In this document: positions 48,253 through 61,316 of the stretch, in pieces
How the letters are laid out: the number at the start of each line of letters is the position of its first letter
Position numbering within the stretch: position 1 is the stretch's first letter
Assembly (NCBI GenBank): GCA_017649565.1
Contig: JAGCGO010000030.1
Span: 1 to 64,000, forward strand
Length of the DNA: 64,000 bases
Source of the DNA: Fibrobacter sp.
GTDB taxonomy: Bacteria > Fibrobacterota > Fibrobacteria > Fibrobacterales > Fibrobacteraceae
Direction: 5' to 3'
Position numbers and translations under genes: made by a program
The notes under the pieces: generated by a model
Told to the model about the DNA's origin: nothing
What the model saw: only the letters and a program-made list of their open reading frames with translations
Database searches by the model: none

Positions 48253-48258
48253 ATGCTT

Positions 48259-50310
48259 ATGAAAAATGATGCAATGAATCGGTTGCTTGAATCGTGCCGC
48301 ATTTTAGCCCAAAAAATTAATTGGTCTGTACTCAGATCGAAAAATCCCTTTGTGTGGATCGTTGCTGTTGCCCTTGTGCTCCAGATATTGATGCTGGTGC
48401 TCTTTTATAGTCTGCCCGATCCGCTGGGCCTTTCGCTCACCGAAATGTTCGAAGGGAAGATTATCTGGCAGGTGTTCATGGCCTTCGGAGCCATTCTCGT
48501 GATGGGGGCGCTGTTCGCCTTTGCCCGCGCTCCCCGCGCCTTGGCCATCTTTTACGCGTTCTACTTTTTTGTCGCCGTCGTGGATTATGACCTGTTCCGC
48601 TTTTCTCATCAGCGCCTTTCGTACTCGTTCCTCCGCACGTATTTCCACATTTCGAACATTACCGATGCGACGACAGTTTCCACATTGGGCGGTGACCTTT
48701 TGGGGACTGTGCTTTGGGTTGTTATCGTGCTTGTTGGCTTTGCGGGTGCCGCCGCTTTCGTGACCGTCTATACGATACGCCTTCGCAGGATGCGTGCCGC
48801 ACTCGGGGGTGTCCAGGTGGAGCCCTGCAAACATTCAAAAAAGCTTCCGGTGACAATGCTCGTTGTCGGCCTCGCTCTTTCCGTGACGCCCTTGGTGCTT
48901 TTCTTGACAGGAGCGAGGGGCTGGATCGAGGTCCCGCTGGTCCATTTCAAGATTGAAAAACGCTTTACGCTCGGGAAGCATACGCTCACGGCTCCGGTTC
49001 TCCATATTGCTGCGGTGGAAACATTCGAGTTCATCCACGACAATACAAAGATTACGGACGACCTGATTGACGACCTGAATTCCTTCTTGCCTGCGGACTT
49101 TGTGGCTAGTCGCCCTGACTTGGCTGCATACCCGACATACCGTGGAGCGCCTACGCACGAGTACAAGGCAAAAAAGCGCTACAACATTGTGTTCATTATG
49201 GGGGAATCTTTTAAGGGTCGCTTCTTCAACAAGATGCTCGAAGGCGATACCGCTCTTGCCCCGAACATATGGAAATTGGCAAGCGGCGGTTACTTTGCCA
49301 AGGATTCCTCCGGCAACTCGCTTGGTGGCGGGCTTTGGTTCAAGAATGCGTTTAGCGGCGGATACCCGACGGTGCGCGGGACCATGGCGACCTACATGGG
49401 GTTCCCCTCGCACCCGAACCGTGACGTGCCCAGCTTCTATGCGGCCAACAAGTTCAAGGGCTTCCCGGAATTCCTGACGGACTATCACAGGTCCTACATG
49501 ACGGTCTCAAATCCGATTTTCGACCATACGCTGCCTTTCGTGGAAAAGTTCTTTGGCAAGAACTGGTATTTGCCCGAAGAGGAACAGATCGAAGGCTCTG
49601 CGGACAGTCTCGGCGTAAATGCGGCCATCAAGGCGCTTGCCGAGAAGCCGGTGGACAGACCGTGGCTGCTTTCTTTCAATACGATTGCTTCGCACATTCC
49701 TTTCTATAACTACCCTCTGCAATTTGCCGAACAGCCCGACGATGCCGTGGTGCGTTACCGCAATGCAGTCCGCTATACCGATACGCAACTGGGACGCTTT
49801 TTCGATGAACTGTCCAAGCGTCCCGACTTCGAGAATACGGTCGTGATTATCCTGGGCGACCACGACACTCCCGTGGATTCCATTGACTACAAGGTGCCGC
49901 AGCCGCTCGGCGTTTCCACGACGCAAATCTTTATCGGCCTGTTCTCGCCGGATACCGCCCTGTTCAATGGCCTTACGGTCCGCGAAGATGTCGCATCGCA
50001 GCTGGACTTGGGCCCCACCGTGTTCGACTTGGCCGGAGTCCGCGAGCCCAACCATTTCTGGGGTTACGACTTGCTTGTCCAGGAACGTCCGGCTGCCCAG
50101 CCGTCGGTGTTCTTCTCGCAGAATTCCTATTACCTCGGGTTCCGCGACCACGTGTTGGTGGGTGGCCTCGAGAACGAGGAAGTGTATAGCGGGGTCGATG
50201 GCGTCTTTACGCAGGTGCAGGATTCCCTCTCGCTCGGCTGGAAAAAGAAGGCCGTGGGGACTGCGAAGGCCTTGCGTTCCGTTCTCCGCAACGACATCAT
50301 GATGCCGTAA
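48259..50310 (+). CDS. LtaS-type sulfatase-fold membrane enzyme 3
   Basis: The 683-residue protein has membrane helices up to about residue 230 and then a catalytic domain. The motifs are YNIVFIMGESFKGRFFN, AFSGGYPTVRGTMATYMG (nucleophile Thr in G-x-P-T) and VVIILGDHDTP. It differs clearly from the two paralogues on the other strand, with an extra loop (VFSGGYPT region preceded by SSGNSLGGGLWFKN). The chosen start is the ATG placed seven bases after a -10 box, without a Shine-Dalgarno. It is divergent from the pair and may act on a different acceptor. The role is inferred from family. Confidence 0.85.
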   Translation: MKNDAMNRLLESCRILAQKINWSVLRSKNPFVWIVAVALVLQILMLVLFYSLPDPLGLSLTEMFEGKIIWQVFMAFGAILVMGALFAFARAPRALAIFYAFYFFVAVVDYDLFRFSHQRLSYSFLRTYFHISNITDATTVSTLGGDLLGTVLWVVIVLVGFAGAAAFVTVYTIRLRRMRAALGGVQVEPCKHSKKLPVTMLVVGLALSVTPLVLFLTGARGWIEVPLVHFKIEKRFTLGKHTLTAPVLHIAAVETFEFIHDNTKITDDLIDDLNSFLPADFVASRPDLAAYPTYRGAPTHEYKAKKRYNIVFIMGESFKGRFFNKMLEGDTALAPNIWKLASGGYFAKDSSGNSLGGGLWFKNAFSGGYPTVRGTMATYMGFPSHPNRDVPSFYAANKFKGFPEFLTDYHRSYMTVSNPIFDHTLPFVEKFFGKNWYLPEEEQIEGSADSLGVNAAIKALAEKPVDRPWLLSFNTIASHIPFYNYPLQFAEQPDDAVVRYRNAVRYTDTQLGRFFDELSKRPDFENTVVIILGDHDTPVDSIDYKVPQPLGVSTTQIFIGLFSPDTALFNGLTVREDVASQLDLGPTVFDLAGVREPNHFWGYDLLVQERPAAQPSVFFSQNSYYLGFRDHVLVGGLENEEVYSGVDGVFTQVQDSLSLGWKKKAVGTAKALRSVLRNDIMMP

Positions 50311-53224: not shown

Positions 53225-55294
53225 CTAAAGTCCCCGTTCCAGGCTATAGTCAGAAATCTTGAGCAATGTGTCGAGAGTCGCCGAAAGGAGGCTCTCTTCG
53301 TTTTGTAACTTGCCGGTGAGTTCGTTTTCCTGGCGCAGGTCGCTATCGGCGAAGATATGCGTTTCTTCTTGCGAGGGGTATTTCGCGATAAAGCGGTAAC
53401 CATCGAGACCGATGGCGGCGTAGCCGGAGTAGGCTCCCAGCGAAAGCCCCGCAAGTTCCTGCGGTGCGACAGCGGAATTTGCCGCAGAATCAATGGCAAG
53501 AGAATCGTTAGCAATGGTGTCGGCCTTTGCAACATTTCCGCGCAGCAGATTATGCCCCATAAATATGTTCGGCACGGCAAATCCGGCGAGTTCAAGCACG
53601 GTGGGCGCAATGTCTATCTGGGCTGCTGTCGTAGTGTCGTAAGCGGCTTCCAGGCCCTTCCCGTGGATGAAGAAGGGTATCCAGCTCACGTTCGAGAATC
53701 CGCCGCCGTTCATGGTGGACACGCCATTTTCGCCCAGGGGGAACCCGTGGTCGGCCATTATGATCACGTAGGTGTTCTTGTACCATTCCTCGTTTTCGAT
53801 GGCCCGGATAAAGCGGGCGAGTTGCCTGTCGGCGTAACCCATGGTCACGTTGATGCGCTCCTGCAAGGGCCTGTTCTTCTCTTCGTCGGTCATGCCTGCC
53901 GCGAAGTTGAAGGGGTAATGGTTGGAACGCGTCATGAGTGTGGCGAGGAAGGGCTTGCCCTCCTTGGAAAGCGTGTCGCGTACGTATTCGATGGCGTGGT
54001 CCATGAAGGTGGAGTCGTCTTCGCGTTCGCGGTTGTAGTGCAGCGCGGTGTACCACTTGGATGTCCATACGCCCAGGTTGTCCCAGGCGGGGTCGGCCGC
54101 CGACATGTAGTGCGTGCTGTAGCCGGAATCGGTGAGTGTGGATACAAAGCTCGGGAGCGTTATGTGCGCAAGGTCCGTGGCCTGCGCGAGGCGCGAATGG
54201 TGGGGGATGCCAAGGTGGGTCGAGAGGACTCCGCCCGTGGTGGGGACGCCGCTCGTGTGCATGCGCATCCATACGTGGGAATGTGCGGCGAGCGAGTCCA
54301 TGAATGGCGTGGGGGTGGGCTGAATCTGCGGGTTCATATAACCGACATTCAGGCCTCGCTGGGATTCCATGAGCACCAGGATGAAGTTCGGCTGCATCGC
54401 TCGCTGGGCCTTGAGCTTTTCGCTTTGTTGCAATGCCTGTGTCGGGACGCGGTAAAGCGGGAGACCGTTGCCGGCCTTGTCGCTAGAGAATTCCCAGAGG
54501 GAATCGCCTTCGATTCTCTGCCAAAGGTTCTGGTATGTAGTGCGGTAGGCGGCCAAATCGGCTTCCGCAAGGCCTTCGGCTTTTTCCGCTTCGAAGAGGT
54601 CCTTGTAGACTAGGGAGACGACCGGACGGAGCTTTGTCATGCGTGCGTTCCCTGTCCAGATGACATACACGAACAGGTACGAGGCGATGTAGAATATGAG
54701 CATCGCGATGACGGACTTTTTTACGTAGAATCCGTCGCTTGGGCGGTACCACTTGCAAAGGAGCCTGTAGAACCCGTAAGTCAGCGGGAGCATCAGCGCG
54801 AGCACGACGAACTGCAGGTAGGGCACGGAAAGATCGTTCGCCACGTAGTCGTAGAACATGGCTATAGAGGAGGTGTCCTTGTAGGTGTCCATGAGCCCGA
54901 AGGAAAGGTGCCCGCCCAGGAATCGCTGTACCTCGTTGTCGAGCAGCGTGAAGGGGAGGATGACGGCATGGAATGTCGCGTAAAGGATGGTCGTGACCTT
55001 GGCGACGGTGGCCGCCTGCGAAGCTTTCCCGGCAATTTTTGCGACAATGCAGCCTATGACGGCAAAGACGACGAGCGCATTCACGATCCACAGGAAATCA
55101 AGGCAGACGGCGTGGAAAATGAACCAGTCGGGCTTGCTGACGAACGGGAAACCGTAGGGGTTGCTGCGGAACAGGAGCATCACGCGCAGGACGATGTGCA
55201 TCGCCCAGGCGGCAAGCGAAATCAGGACAAGTTTCTGGAAAGGGGCGAAACTTGCTGCTGTTTTTTTCAGCAGGTTTAAAATATTCGGTTTCAT
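53225..55294 (-). CDS. LtaS-type sulfatase-fold membrane enzyme 4
   Basis: The 689-residue protein starts at the ATG that overlaps the stop of the glycosyltransferase gene (ATGA); a start six codons up lies inside that gene. Membrane helices occupy about 20-240, followed by a catalytic domain with FILVLMESQRGLNVG, the nucleophile segment HTSGVPTTGGVLSTHLG (G-x-P-T) and VIIMADHGFP. It is the last gene of a unit of primase-like gene, glycosyltransferase and this enzyme. Together with the three others it makes four LtaS-like genes within 11 kb. The donor group is not predictable from sequence. Confidence 0.86.
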   Translation of the reverse strand: MKPNILNLLKKTAASFAPFQKLVLISLAAWAMHIVLRVMLLFRSNPYGFPFVSKPDWFIFHAVCLDFLWIVNALVVFAVIGCIVAKIAGKASQAATVAKVTTILYATFHAVILPFTLLDNEVQRFLGGHLSFGLMDTYKDTSSIAMFYDYVANDLSVPYLQFVVLALMLPLTYGFYRLLCKWYRPSDGFYVKKSVIAMLIFYIASYLFVYVIWTGNARMTKLRPVVSLVYKDLFEAEKAEGLAEADLAAYRTTYQNLWQRIEGDSLWEFSSDKAGNGLPLYRVPTQALQQSEKLKAQRAMQPNFILVLMESQRGLNVGYMNPQIQPTPTPFMDSLAAHSHVWMRMHTSGVPTTGGVLSTHLGIPHHSRLAQATDLAHITLPSFVSTLTDSGYSTHYMSAADPAWDNLGVWTSKWYTALHYNREREDDSTFMDHAIEYVRDTLSKEGKPFLATLMTRSNHYPFNFAAGMTDEEKNRPLQERINVTMGYADRQLARFIRAIENEEWYKNTYVIIMADHGFPLGENGVSTMNGGGFSNVSWIPFFIHGKGLEAAYDTTTAAQIDIAPTVLELAGFAVPNIFMGHNLLRGNVAKADTIANDSLAIDSAANSAVAPQELAGLSLGAYSGYAAIGLDGYRFIAKYPSQEETHIFADSDLRQENELTGKLQNEESLLSATLDTLLKISDYSLERGL

Positions 55295-56475
55295 TCTGGG
55301 GTCTTGTTGCAAATTTGTCTGTACAGTTCCAGCTGGCGCTTGAAACAGTCGTCCCAGCTGAACTTCTCGGCGTAGGCGCGGGCCTTCTGTTTCATGCCCT
55401 GCATGTCGGAACGGTAAAGTTCCACGATGGCATCGGCGAGCGCTTCGGGGGTGCGTTCCTTGAGGATTGTCCCGGCTCCCGATTCCGTCACGTGCTCGAA
55501 TGCGGCGCCTGCGGCGGCTCCGACCTGGGCGTTCCCGCTGGCCATGCTCTCGAGGATCGAAAGTCCGAAGGTTTCCCAGCCCGAGAGTGCGAGTCCCAAA
55601 TCGACACTGGCATAGTAGCGGGCCATTTCGTCAACAGAGTTCACGAAACCGATGTAGCGTACGTGCTCGTACTTCTTGGCTGCCTCTTGCACCAGCGGGA
55701 GGCTCGGCCCTGTGCCCGCGAAAGTGATGGCGGGTTCGTGGCCCAGTCTTTGGGTGAGGATGTCGTAGGCTCCCAGCAAAAGGTCGATCCCTTTTTCCTT
55801 GCAGAGCCTGTGCGGGAAGAACATGGTGAGCCGTTCGGGGTTGCCCGCCTTGAGTTCGTTTACGAGCGCCTCGTCGCGCTTTGTGGGCGAGAACATGTTG
55901 ATGTCGCATCCCAGCGGAATCCAGCGCGGGTCAGGCAGTCCGTTCTTGCGGAGGCGTGCCATGGCTTCCTTGGACGATGCCTGGATGCAGTCGAATCCCT
56001 TGAATTCCTTGCGGGCGTACCAGAAGGCTTCCTTGCGGGCGAACGTCCCGGCACCGACGCCGAGCTTCTTTGCCACCGGGCGACCCACATAGGTCACGGG
56101 GAAGTCCGCATGCCAGAAACCGACCAGCTTGGATTCGGGGCTAGCTCGCCTTGCAGCCCGGCGGACGACGGTCGGCAAGATGTAGGGGGATCCCACCTCG
56201 ATGATGTCGGGCTTGTACTTGGCAAGCACGGGCTCCACCTGTGAGCGTTTCCATATAAAGCGGTATTCCCAGTTGCCCGGGAACTTGAACGCCTGTACAT
56301 GCTCGATGATCAGGCCTTCGCTGCGTACTTCCGTGAAAGTCTTCGAGTCGGGCATCACGAAAACGGAGAGGGCTTCCTTCTGCTTTTCGTAGAAAGCCAT
56401 CTTCTGCAGGTGATAACGTCGGACTCCGCCTCCGGACGGACTCCAGAAATTGTTGATATCGACTACGGTTAGCAT
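55291..56475 (-). CDS. GT4-family glycosyltransferase (lipid glycosyltransferase-like)
   Basis: The 394-residue protein has a GT-B fold. The N-terminus reads VVDINNFWSPSGGGVRRYHLQK, where the Gly-rich loop is typical of GT4. The nucleotide-sugar domain shows FFPHRLCKEKGIDLLLGAYDIL, ITFAGTGPSLPLV and LALSGWETFGLSILESMASGNAQVG with the E-x7-E pair. GT4 enzymes of this type often glycosylate lipids such as diacylglycerol or phosphatidylinositol. The start codon overlaps the previous stop (TAATG), and the stop overlaps the start of the LtaS-like gene, so the three genes are coupled. Confidence 0.88.
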   Translation of the reverse strand: MLTVVDINNFWSPSGGGVRRYHLQKMAFYEKQKEALSVFVMPDSKTFTEVRSEGLIIEHVQAFKFPGNWEYRFIWKRSQVEPVLAKYKPDIIEVGSPYILPTVVRRAARRASPESKLVGFWHADFPVTYVGRPVAKKLGVGAGTFARKEAFWYARKEFKGFDCIQASSKEAMARLRKNGLPDPRWIPLGCDINMFSPTKRDEALVNELKAGNPERLTMFFPHRLCKEKGIDLLLGAYDILTQRLGHEPAITFAGTGPSLPLVQEAAKKYEHVRYIGFVNSVDEMARYYASVDLGLALSGWETFGLSILESMASGNAQVGAAAGAAFEHVTESGAGTILKERTPEALADAIVELYRSDMQGMKQKARAYAEKFSWDDCFKRQLELYRQICNKTPE

Positions 56476-58361
56476 TAGACTTCTTTCATCTTGTTGGAAA
56501 GCGGGTGCATCTCCAGGTAGCCTTCGTAAAGGTGGTTCGCGCCGAGCCGCTTGGAATTGACGGAGAGGAACAGGTTGCCGCCCTTGGATTCGAGCCAGTA
56601 AATGGCGTCGGAATCGCGGAGGTAGGGCCTGGGGCCTTCAAGCCCCTGTTCGTTCCTCACGAGTTCTCCTCCGAGGAATAGCGGAATGTCGAGTGCCTTG
56701 TAGATGTCCAGCATGACCGAGGAACGCCGCTCGTGGATGTCGACGAGGTCCGGACGGTCGGAAATCTTCATGTGGTCGATACCGTCGATGATGACAACCA
56801 GGTCGGGGTGCTCCTTCTGCTCGTCCTTCAAGACAGAGAGCATTTCCGTGTTGTCGAACGACGGCTGGTCTTCCCAGATTTCGAGGCGGTTGTTGCGGAC
56901 ATAGGATATCAGTTCCTTGGTCGTCTCGAGGATTTTCTGGTTGATCTGTTCGTCGGCGTTCTGCTTCCTCACGGTGAGCACGGATTCGCCGATCGTCATC
57001 GCGACGAGCTTGTCGAAAATCTGACGGCGCGGGGTCTCCAGCGCAATGTAGATGAGCTTGAGTTTCGGGTTGCTCCTGATGAGGTCAAGCGCTATGCTGG
57101 AAAGGAAAGATGTCTTGAGTCCGAAAGGTTCTGCGGACACGTAGAAGCAACCGGATTGGATGCCGTCGATTTCTTTTGCAAGCCTGGGGAAATCCGAGAG
57201 CGTGTAGCCCACGTTCACGTCGGGCGGGCAGCCCATGGCCGTGTCGAAATTCTCCTTGATGTCCTGGAGGAGCATGGAACGGCGGTGCGTGTGGATGGTA
57301 TCCTCTTCGGTATGTGCAATCAGGGACAGGAGTTCGTCTGCACCGTTCTTGCGCACAACCTGGTCCACGGTCTCGTCCTTGGGGAGAATGATGGACTTGA
57401 AACGCAGACCGATCTCTTCGGCCATTTTCAGGTAGCGCTGGACGCGGTATTCCTGGGTGCGGCGGTTCGGTTCCCTGCGGAGAATAAGGGTGACGGTCTC
57501 GGCACCGCAGGCCTTGAGCTTGAGCAGGTGACTCTGCGTGACTTCCTGGTACATGGTCGAGACAACACCGGGGATGCCGGCGAGGTCGGCCGTGAGCGCG
57601 TCGAAGAAGCCTTCGACAATGACAGGCTTCTCGTTTTCCGGCTGGATGTTGAAAGGGATGTCGCACGGGCCGGACGCATACGATACGTAGGCGTGGCTGT
57701 GCATGTTGTCGTCGATAAGCCTGCCGAAGACGGAGTGGATGAGTCCCTTGGAATTGCGCGCGGGAATGGTGATGCGCGGTTCATGGTAGGCTTCGAGGTT
57801 GTCAAGGTAAAAACGGATCTGGTGGCGTTCGACGCCCGAGAGCAGGCAGTAGCTTGCGAACGGTTCCGGGTCGCCGCTGTAGTAGCCGATGCCGTAGAGC
57901 TGCGCCTGGCCGATATTCCAGCCGCGCTTGGCGAGGTATTCTGCAGAAGAGGGGCTCTTGCATGCAGCCCAGTGGCAATAGCGGACAAAGCATTCTAGAA
58001 CTTTGGACTTCTCGCCGCCGACTTCGCGTATCCAGGGATGTTCGTCTTGGAAGGTGTCGGGGGCCTGTTCCTGCTCCTGCTCTCCGAGAAAGTCGATTGC
58101 TTCGGCACGTGCGGCGGGTTCTTCGAGACCGTTGAAACGGCTGCGCATGACGAACTCGACGAGGTCACCGTCGGCTCCGCATTGGAGGCAACGGTAGCGC
58201 CAGTATCCGAGCGCGTCGTAGAAGAACAGCGAGGTCTCTTCGGGGGCGTGGAACGGGCAGCAGGCAATCAGGTTGCGTCCCCAGCGGCTCAGGGGAATGC
58301 CCAGCTGGCGCGGGTGCGTCTTGGTTTTTATGAGTCCAGCGCGTTCTTGGTCTAAAAGCAT
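56475..58361 (-). CDS. Primase-helicase-like fusion with altered TOPRIM motif
   Basis: The 628-residue protein has three parts. An N-terminal CHC2-type zinc finger is visible as ACCPFH (Cys35, His38) and CLQCG (Cys58, Cys61). A TOPRIM-like domain contains PVIVEGFFDAL (about 245-256), but the D-x-D motif expected after a hydrophobic strand is replaced by LILRREPNR (about 290). A RecA/DnaB-type ATPase follows, with the P-loop remnant EPFGLKTSF (about 415), YIALETPRRQIFDKLVAMTIGE and Walker B LVVIIDGIDHMK. This order matches T7 gp4/Twinkle-type primase-helicases. A Shine-Dalgarno GAGG is present. It is co-transcribed with a glycosyltransferase. No phage genes are near. Whether primase activity remains is doubtful. 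Confidence 0.8.
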   Translation of the reverse strand: MLLDQERAGLIKTKTHPRQLGIPLSRWGRNLIACCPFHAPEETSLFFYDALGYWRYRCLQCGADGDLVEFVMRSRFNGLEEPAARAEAIDFLGEQEQEQAPDTFQDEHPWIREVGGEKSKVLECFVRYCHWAACKSPSSAEYLAKRGWNIGQAQLYGIGYYSGDPEPFASYCLLSGVERHQIRFYLDNLEAYHEPRITIPARNSKGLIHSVFGRLIDDNMHSHAYVSYASGPCDIPFNIQPENEKPVIVEGFFDALTADLAGIPGVVSTMYQEVTQSHLLKLKACGAETVTLILRREPNRRTQEYRVQRYLKMAEEIGLRFKSIILPKDETVDQVVRKNGADELLSLIAHTEEDTIHTHRRSMLLQDIKENFDTAMGCPPDVNVGYTLSDFPRLAKEIDGIQSGCFYVSAEPFGLKTSFLSSIALDLIRSNPKLKLIYIALETPRRQIFDKLVAMTIGESVLTVRKQNADEQINQKILETTKELISYVRNNRLEIWEDQPSFDNTEMLSVLKDEQKEHPDLVVIIDGIDHMKISDRPDLVDIHERRSSVMLDIYKALDIPLFLGGELVRNEQGLEGPRPYLRDSDAIYWLESKGGNLFLSVNSKRLGANHLYEGYLEMHPLSNKMKEV

Positions 58362-58471
58362 AATGAACCTCGTTCCGTCAACAGAAAAACAGGATTGCCC
58401 TAGTGAACAATTTAATAAAATTTTTAGTTTTAAGACTACACTTTTTGAACTTGCTTTTGGATGGTTAACGC

Positions 58472-59056
58472 ATGATTGTTCTTGGGATAGATCCGGGTTC
58501 CGTGAATACGGGATACGCCTTTGTCGACGCCTGCGGCACGGATTTCCGCGTGCTGGAATATGGCGCCCTGCATGCTCCCAAGAACCGTTCCTTCGAGGAC
58601 CGCCTCTTGCATATCGTCGACTCGCTGGAATTGCTTATGGACAAGTACCAGCCCGAAATGCTCGGCATGGAAAGCGCATTCGTGGCCGTCAATGCCCGCA
58701 GTGCCCTTGTGCTGGGCCATGTCCGCGGGGCCATCCTTGTCGCCTGCAAAAAGAGGGGCATGTCCTTCTCGGAATTTCCGCCATCTACGATCAAGCAGGC
58801 CGTGACCGGCAAGGGAAACGCGTCCAAGGAACACGTGGCCAACATGATCTATGCAAGGCTCGGCATCGCGCCCGAAAAGGTGCTTCTCGACGCGACCGAT
58901 GCCCTCGCCATTGCCTGGACAACGGCAAACCCGAACCCGGTTTCCGAGGCACTGCTTTCGAAGGGCGGCTCCAGGAAGAGTGCGTCCAGGAAACGTCGTG
59001 CGACGGTGAATGAATGGAAAAGTCTGATAGAGAAGATGGGAGGGGTATGCCCGTGA
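58472..59056 (+). CDS. ruvC: Crossover junction endodeoxyribonuclease RuvC
   Basis: RuvC resolves Holliday junctions together with RuvAB. The 194-residue protein carries the four acidic residues Asp7 (GIDPGSVNTGYA), Glu67 (GMESAF), Asp140 and Asp143 (LLDATDALAIAWT). The C-terminus is longer than in E. coli and basic (KGGSRKSASRKRRA). It is divergent from the primase-like gene with a 110-bp gap, and its stop overlaps the start of the peptidase gene. ruvA and ruvB are not in the window. Confidence 0.96.
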   Translation: MIVLGIDPGSVNTGYAFVDACGTDFRVLEYGALHAPKNRSFEDRLLHIVDSLELLMDKYQPEMLGMESAFVAVNARSALVLGHVRGAILVACKKRGMSFSEFPPSTIKQAVTGKGNASKEHVANMIYARLGIAPEKVLLDATDALAIAWTTANPNPVSEALLSKGGSRKSASRKRRATVNEWKSLIEKMGGVCP

Positions 59057-59721: not shown

Positions 59722-60425
59722 TGCAGCTAGACTTTTCCCCCGAGAATCGTGGCGTGATCCGCCAGAAGTCAGAGATGTACGGTCGCTCCGTGCTCGGGGC
59801 CCCTCTGCAGTATTTCCCGGCCTCGGGAAGTACGGAGCTTCTTGTCGTTGCCGGAATCCACGGGGAAGAACCCGAGACGACGTTTTTGCTGAGCCGTTCC
59901 GTGCGCCATTTGCCGCAAGCTCTGGAGCATACCGCTGTCGTGCTGTGCGCCAATCCGGACGGGATGGCCCTGGGGACGCGCGGCAATGCGTCGGGTGTCG
60001 ACCTCAACCGGAATTTTTCGACATCGAACTGGAAGCAGGGGAGTGTCGGTTCCCGCTCCGTGTTGGAACGTGCTCGCGATACGATGCTTTCCGCCGGGAC
60101 ATCGCCTGCGAGTGAGCCGGAAACCTGTGCGCTGCTGGATCTGGTAAAGAACTTGCGCCCCAGGTCCATCCTGTCGATACATGCTCCGTTGGGATGCCTG
60201 GACGCCCCGGAAAGGACCCCGCTGGTTGCGGCCCTGCAGGATGTGTTTGGCCTGCCCTGGGTCCCCGATGTCGGGTACGAGACTCCGGGTAGCCTCGGAA
60301 CATGGTGCAACGAAAACGGCACCGAATGCGTTACGCTTGAATTGCCCAGGATGTCGCTGGAAATGCTATACGACCGCTATGGCGAGGCCTTCGCCCGGTT
60401 CCTGGCTGGCCCCGTTCCGCGCTAG
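59718..60425 (+). CDS. mpaA: M14-family zinc carboxypeptidase, MpaA-like murein peptide amidase
   Basis: The 235-residue protein has the zinc motif HxxE as VVAGIHGEEPE (His48, Glu51), CANPDGMALGTRGNASGVDLNRNF for substrate binding, a third zinc ligand in SIHAPLGCLD, and catalytic glutamate near VTLELPRMS. MpaA cleaves the gamma-D-Glu-diaminopimelate bond in peptidoglycan recycling. It follows a VanY-like peptidase with overlapping codons, which supports a role in muropeptide turnover. Its TAG stop and the stop of the convergent pssA share the palindrome CTAG. Confidence 0.88.
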   Translation: MMQLDFSPENRGVIRQKSEMYGRSVLGAPLQYFPASGSTELLVVAGIHGEEPETTFLLSRSVRHLPQALEHTAVVLCANPDGMALGTRGNASGVDLNRNFSTSNWKQGSVGSRSVLERARDTMLSAGTSPASEPETCALLDLVKNLRPRSILSIHAPLGCLDAPERTPLVAALQDVFGLPWVPDVGYETPGSLGTWCNENGTECVTLELPRMSLEMLYDRYGEAFARFLAGPVPR

Positions 60426-61234
60426 GCGGCCTTTTCTTTTTCCGCCTTGGCTTCGGCGATAATCTTCTTGCGGTTGATGAGTCCGACGGCAAGGCCGATG
60501 GTCAGGTAGCCACCGACAAGGAGCAGCAGGTATTCGTACAGGAACGGGATAGTGTCCGTGACGAAGAAGAAGGCGCTAATATAGGTGATGACGATGAGTA
60601 TCGCCTGGAACGTATTGAAAATCTTGTTCTTGCGCGGCTGGAGTTTCGGCAGGAACACGGGGCTCACCATCAGGATGCCGGTGACGAACAGGATGGCAAC
60701 GGGGAGGAACAGCGCTGCAGAATCCGCACCGTCGAACAGTCCGCGGGACTTGAAGAACACGATGGTGATGGCATTGATGGCACCGGCGAATGTCGAGGGC
60801 ACGCCGGAAAAGTGGTGGTGGTACGTATCGGAGTCCAGTGCATTGTACTTGGCGAGTCGCATGGCAGCGCAGAGCACGTAGATGCTGAACACGACAATCA
60901 AAAGTGCAAAGTGGGACTGGAACCATTCGGGAGCGAATCCCTTGTAGGCGTACAAGATGCAGAATGCGGGGGCGACACCGAAGGCAATCAGGTCGGCAAG
61001 GCTGTCGAACTGGGCGCCGAACTCGGAACTGGCGTTGACCAGTCGGGCGGCGAAACCGTCGAGCTTGTCAAAGAGAACGCAGAGCAAGATGAAGTAGGCG
61101 CTCATGCGGATGGTGTCCGTCCCGGGTGACGTAAAGCTGTCAAAGGAGCCAGTTGCCCAGCATATGGCGAAAACGCCGAGCATGAAGTTGAGGCTTGTAA
61201 ATGCATTCGGGAATATATAGCGGAACTTGCTCAC
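60422..61234 (-). CDS. pssA: CDP-diacylglycerol-serine O-phosphatidyltransferase
   Basis: The enzyme makes phosphatidylserine, the precursor of phosphatidylethanolamine. The start is the GTG at 61232-61234, five bases behind AAGGAG; an upstream ATG would add 21 residues with poor composition. The 270-residue integral membrane protein has the CDP-alcohol phosphotransferase signature DGFAARLVNASSEFGAQFDSLAD (G-x3-D-x3-D spacing) in DKLDG...FDSLADLIAFGVAP, and several helices. A -10 box TATTTT lies about 30 bases upstream. The C-terminus is Lys/Glu-rich. The gene converges with mpaA and overlaps its stop by four bases. Confidence 0.93.
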   Translation of the reverse strand: MSKFRYIFPNAFTSLNFMLGVFAICWATGSFDSFTSPGTDTIRMSAYFILLCVLFDKLDGFAARLVNASSEFGAQFDSLADLIAFGVAPAFCILYAYKGFAPEWFQSHFALLIVVFSIYVLCAAMRLAKYNALDSDTYHHHFSGVPSTFAGAINAITIVFFKSRGLFDGADSAALFLPVAILFVTGILMVSPVFLPKLQPRKNKIFNTFQAILIVITYISAFFFVTDTIPFLYEYLLLLVGGYLTIGLAVGLINRKKIIAEAKAEKEKAA

Positions 61235-61286
61235 GGGGACTCCTTTGTAGGGTACTCCGAAAATATAAAAAAAACTGGAGACATCA

Positions 61287-61316
61287 AAAAAAGACATCTG
61301 GATAGATGTCTTTTTT
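61287..61316. terminator. Bidirectional-looking terminator
   Basis: AAAAAAGACATCT (61287-61299) and AGATGTCTTTTTT (61304-61316) form a perfect 13-bp stem with a four-base loop. It ends the transcript of the binding-protein gene on the minus strand, 24 bases after its stop. Confidence 0.9.

Follow-up and report, generated by a model that had tools for sequence, protein, structure and literature searches.

An apparently domesticated primase-helicase fusion with a lost priming site is a fixed gene of the genus Fibrobacter

What is a fused primase-helicase doing in a bacterial chromosome, and can it still prime or unwind DNA when the residues expected of either activity look altered? The question is raised by a gene in the window, a stretch of 64,000 nucleotides from a Fibrobacter sp. 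genome that was analysed as a whole; the gene starts with ATG and runs for 628 codons (Table 1). A literature search returned nothing on the fusion protein. The original prediction, made from the sequence of the window, assigned it the domain order of T7 gp4 and Twinkle, and this order was confirmed: a CHC2 finger, a DnaG-type core with TOPRIM and a DnaB-type RecA domain follow one another in one chain. Pfam placed CHC2 (PF01807, E = 4e-9) and DnaB_C (PF03796, E = 7.5e-7) above their cut-offs, with the TOPRIM models sub-threshold. An AlphaFold2 model (pLDDT 75, pTM 0.49, poorest in the N-terminal part) retrieved Twinkle and T7 gp4 (1q57 and 5ikn for gp4) as the top full-length Foldseek hits, both collinear with it, and its RecA part superposed on the C-terminal domain of DnaB with Z ~26 at 2.4-2.7 Å over 230-260 residues. 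Taken together, the profile and structure matches indicate that the fused architecture is real.

The relatives of the individual parts are bacterial. When the family profile was compared with solved chains, it matched DnaG (2au3, 6e-11) and DnaB (6t66, 9e-6) and no gp4 or Twinkle chain; the protein further differs from T7 gp4 in having no D-x-D, an altered P-loop and the standing of a chromosomal core gene. An alignment of ~350 residues with bacterial DnaG spans the CHC2 finger, the core and TOPRIM, but a RecA domain replaces the DnaG C-terminal part, D-x-D is missing, and the TIGR01391 dnaG match (E = 1.5e-24) lies far under the model's cut-off (86.6 versus 283.6 bits). The likeness to bacterial DnaB is confined to the RecA-like C-terminal domain: TIGR00665 scored 24.1 bits against a cut-off of 385.25, and Pfam matches with E values up to 1 included no DnaB N-terminal domain. 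HHalign of the RecA part with one DnaB gave a probability of 2.9% (E = 0.016), a weak value because the target is a single sequence; this comparison was used for motif register only, the domain assignment being carried by Pfam and the structure matches.

Table 1. Features of the fusion gene and its immediate surroundings, in window coordinates.
Feature	Coordinates	Strand	Basis
Pseudo-primase-helicase gene, 628 aa (CHC2 finger, DnaG-like core/TOPRIM, DnaB-type RecA domain)	56475..58361	-	ORF, Pfam, NCBIfam, model
CHC2 zinc finger, ligands C35, H38, C58, C61	58137..58298	-	Pfam, family alignment
DnaG N-terminal core-like region, residues ~139-219	57705..57947	-	weak Pfam PF08275, part of TIGR01391 match, HHalign
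TOPRIM-like domain, residues ~245-345, metal-binding D-x-D absent	57327..57629	-	Pfam sub-threshold, phmmer, HHalign
TOPRIM glutamate E250	57612..57614	-	family alignment
R295-R296-E297 in place of D-x-D	57471..57479	-	family alignment, HHalign
DnaB/gp4-type RecA-like domain, residues ~389-606	56544..57197	-	Pfam, profile search, structure match, HHalign register
Degenerate P-loop A-E-P-F-G-L-K-T, residues 410-417	57111..57134	-	alignment with DnaB
Walker B strand, residues 521-527, D526 family-invariant	56781..56801	-	alignment
GT4-family glycosyltransferase, constant downstream neighbour in family	55291..56475	-	neighbourhood comparison
ruvC, divergent neighbour in most genera	58472..59056	+	neighbourhood comparison
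Divergent intergenic region, 110 bp; promoter-like TTTCTTTATTAGATTT in many genus members	58362..58471	.	promoter-like block by eye

The motor site is altered in the window and eroded further among the sister genera. Against the DnaB of the same genome, the P-loop A-A-R-P-G-V-G-K-T reads S-A-E-P-F-G-L-K-T, the degenerate F-G-L-K-T that had been anticipated. Lysine and threonine survive without the preceding glycine, and the GK[TS] of Walker A has become LKT. Throughout the family this glycine is replaced, by L, F, Y, H or D. Elsewhere in the domain LEM has become LET, E566 occupies the position of the sensor glutamine and R605 that of the arginine finger, and the LRESGSIEQD motif of DnaB is missing, LRESGSIEQDAD being reduced to LRDSDA (the DLRESGSIEQDAD block in the alignment with the genome's own DnaB). 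Within the genus Fibrobacter, K416, T417, E442, D526 and E566 are invariant in 89 distinct sequences and R605 is kept in 86 of them, a pattern compatible with an NTPase that is unusual but functional. The sister genera have been less conservative: the Walker lysine is lost in g20, T417 has become Gly in g22, the catalytic glutamate is D in g19 and g21 and K in g20, and the finger arginine is lost in g19 and g20, as it is in three members of the genus itself. Judged from these alignments, it is unlikely that the family as a whole depends on ATP-driven unwinding.

These residues bear directly on the alternative that survives best, namely that priming has been lost while the RecA domain of genus Fibrobacter continues to work as a translocase or helicase driven by NTP, acting in fork restart or recombination. 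Metazoan Twinkle, an active helicase that has lost its primase activity, provides a precedent (PMC7231222), and the genus-wide constancy of the K, T, E, D and R positions, together with a well-preserved Walker B and predicted fold, would agree with it. On the other hand, the P-loop glycine is missing everywhere, the K, T/S, E and finger R have each been given up in some sister genus, and the LRESGSIEQD motif is absent, for which reasons we consider this alternative unlikely.

The genomic surroundings offer a different partner from the one proposed initially. A role in DNA repair had been suggested on the strength of the divergent ruvC; this gene is not adjacent to the fusion in the two deepest genera, g16 and g21, and was rejected as a constant partner, leaving the repair role unsupported. 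The constant neighbour is instead the glycosyltransferase, which lies next to the fusion and in the same direction in all 15 neighbourhoods examined, the deepest genera included. Its ATG overlaps the stop codon of the fusion gene in the window (TAATG), a stop-start overlap recurs in most of the 15 neighbourhoods, including one of a deepest genus, and the match coordinates of the two genes abut across the genus. In many members of the genus, a promoter-like TTTCTTTATTAGATTT was noticed by eye a short distance before the start codon of the fusion (upstream regions of L008-L033). The glycosyltransferase is similar to GlcNAc-phosphatidylglycerol synthase, with a match to NF053787 (E = 4.7e-57) that stays below the cut-off, and a PssA-like gene was recognized by eye at 60422-61297; from this context, glycosylation of a lipid head group by the enzyme is plausible. 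Other envelope-type genes of the window are two LTA-synthase-like membrane proteins with sulfatase domains (PF00884), at 48253-50310 on the plus strand and 53225-55312 on the minus strand, with an MMPL/RND-type exporter (PF03176, 50398-53031) between them.

Such linkage could mean that the fusion is a helper of the glycosyltransferase that senses nucleic acid or nucleotides and controls the envelope enzyme or is co-translated with it. The unbroken adjacency, the frequent overlap and the resemblance of the enzyme to a phospholipid-glycosylating synthase all speak for such a role, but g17 and class families f3 and f5 have the glycosyltransferase and lack the fusion, so the pairing is not obligate; moreover, the adjacency may reflect a shared promoter only, and no mechanism is known. 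We therefore regard the helper role as improbable. The glycosyltransferase is informative in another respect, as its tree places g16 and g21 nearest to the outgroups and g17 between those two genera and the rest; this order, with 82-90% support at the key forks, suggests that the fusion was present in the family ancestor and was later lost in g17. In at least five of the six g17 loci (L140, L141, L142, L144 and L148), an RNase HI-like ORF with an N-terminal viroplasmin-like domain, both identified by eye, precedes the glycosyltransferase.

Presence and absence were scored with a family-profile search across the genomes of the phylum. A full-length copy occupies a single fixed locus in 80/80 genomes of genus Fibrobacter, and eight further genera of the family (g16 and g18-g24) contribute another 17 genomes with such a copy. 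Copies of the genus are 71-96% identical to that of the window, and identity falls as low as 33% in g21; the orthologous loci bear the names Fibrobacter sp., F. succinogenes, F. intestinalis and Fibrobacteraceae, and one of them (L131) is from the laboratory strain F. intestinalis ATCC 43854. The search recovered no copy from g17 (12 genomes), g15 (one genome) or one incomplete g24 genome, and the 57 genomes of the phylum that fall outside the family lacked the fusion, giving short DnaG-type matches only. Given the twelve g17 genomes without the gene, some relatives can do without its function.

This distribution weighs heavily on the proposal that the gene is a relic of a mobile element or of a defence system, whether as the primase-helicase of a satellite or prophage or as an effector against phages. 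Fused primase-helicases are typical of phages, structure searches of viral models find such proteins, and a PADLOC model, RT_UG29, overlaps the zinc-finger region. That match, however, involves residues 18-160 alone, the finger and linker part, and does not extend to the whole protein; the neighbourhoods examined contain envelope genes and ruvC and no phage or defence genes; and tblastn together with scans of viral contigs found no full-length counterpart in phages, plasmids or viral contigs and no match for the RecA half, the only hits being to the DnaG part (~43-60% coverage, 21-27% identity). A relic is largely refuted by the distribution and seems to us very improbable. Thus the original prediction was right in seeing chromosomal domestication without phage neighbours, while the defence role that it also entertained finds no support in a core gene fixed in every genome of the genus sample.

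Nor does the gene stand in for a missing replisome part. As the original prediction had proposed to check, its own genome has separate and intact dnaG (contig C23) and dnaB (C113), along with radA (C73), and in the genomes tested dnaB was found in 11/11 and dciA in 10/11; with dnaG, dnaB and dciA present, the fusion replaces nothing. A search for DnaC/IstB returned mostly general AAA+ noise. Two further findings concern other genes of these types. One g17 genome (G106) has six DnaB-type matches, four of them >300 bits, perhaps derived from mobile elements. The genome of the window also encodes a third DnaG-type protein (G000:C43:19621-20874; L003:658-1914, minus strand), with a CHC2 finger and a TOPRIM domain bearing an intact L-D-N-D-E-A-G, ~373 aa from a conserved Met; the gene adjoins murB and a penicillin-binding protein gene, recurs in 25/25 genomes of the genus and also in class family f3, and has RTasDnaG-like as its closest PADLOC model (E = 1.5e-52).

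The priming site is where the departure from known primases is most complete. HHalign against the DnaGs of the phylum aligned the VEGFFD block of the fusion with VEGYFD and set L-R-R-E where DnaG has F-D-G-D, confirming the predicted replacement and leaving no room for a motif misaligned by several residues; phmmer against 2au3 shifted the register by one residue, and D-x-D is absent in either. Not one of the 117 distinct family sequences has an intact D-x-D. R-x-E is nearly fixed at this site in Fibrobacter, with R-K-E in g19 and R-R-T in g20, whereas the deepest genera have E-R-G (g16) and D-K-H (g21), the last keeping the first Asp alone. The TOPRIM glutamate, expected to be intact, is indeed so in the window (E250), although not family-wide: 10/89 genus sequences have Q there, and the two deepest genera have S (g16) and P (g21). 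With both the D-x-D and the glutamate subject to loss, priming by the fusion protein is, on these alignments, very unlikely, and the intact dnaG elsewhere makes it unnecessary. Priming through a variant metal site composed of E250, E297 and another acidic residue could draw on the zinc finger and on the retention of both glutamates in most genus members, but the variability of E250, the Q, D, T, H or G found at position 297 across the family and the two arginines in the site itself make it hardly credible.

The finger shows the opposite pattern. All four zinc ligands are invariant in 117/117 distinct family sequences, as expected of a gp4/Twinkle-type finger, and the finger region has the lowest dN within the gene. 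Whole-gene dN/dS is ~0.04-0.2 where dS is not saturated, and frames are intact at 619-648 aa wherever checked; by these measures the gene is under purifying selection and is no relic, which fits a re-purposed protein, as originally suggested, rather than a decaying one. A pseudogene on its way out, to which the eroded active-site residues might otherwise point, is refuted by these sequences and by the universal presence of the gene in the genus sample.

Our preferred reading, to which we give a probability of roughly 0.55, is that the gene encodes a domesticated primase-helicase fusion, dead as a primase and probably as a motor, which is kept for a structural or regulatory job as a non-catalytic DNA-binding oligomer or fork modulator. 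The protein would assemble through its RecA domain, bind single-stranded DNA with its CHC2 finger and serve, without catalysis of its own, as a platform or competitor, modulating DnaB, DnaG or access to the fork; in genus Fibrobacter, the remaining K, T, E, D and R residues may bind nucleotide as a switch. We propose that such a job of the invariant finger and the RecA-type oligomerising fold accounts for its retention as a core gene. The basic residues by which the core of E. coli DnaG contacts its template do not seem to be kept, and DNA binding by the core is therefore not assured. More tentatively, the protein could be a double pseudoenzyme that has given up both the priming and the motor sites and serves as a nucleoprotein specific to Fibrobacteraceae, regulating forks or linking the state of the DNA to envelope lipid glycosylation through the co-translated glycosyltransferase.

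Animal mitochondrial Twinkle likewise joins a DnaG-like front to a gp4/DnaB-like RecA domain and no longer primes; it has lost its zinc-finger cysteines (PMC7231222, PMC3610141), while keeping most TOPRIM motifs (PMC7231222) and the helicase (PMC7231222, PMC3610141). The fusion of Fibrobacteraceae is its mirror image, with the finger invariant, the D-x-D gone and the ATPase site worn: Twinkle dropped priming and kept the motor, whereas here the finger is the most constrained part and each of the two catalytic sites has been lost or is being eroded. The intermediate states preserved across the genera make it testable which parts of a primase-helicase can serve without catalysis. To our knowledge, bacterial pseudoenzymes derived from replication enzymes have rarely been documented. 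For Fibrobacter, a major gut degrader of plant fibre, the fusion is an unstudied, lineage-specific core gene.
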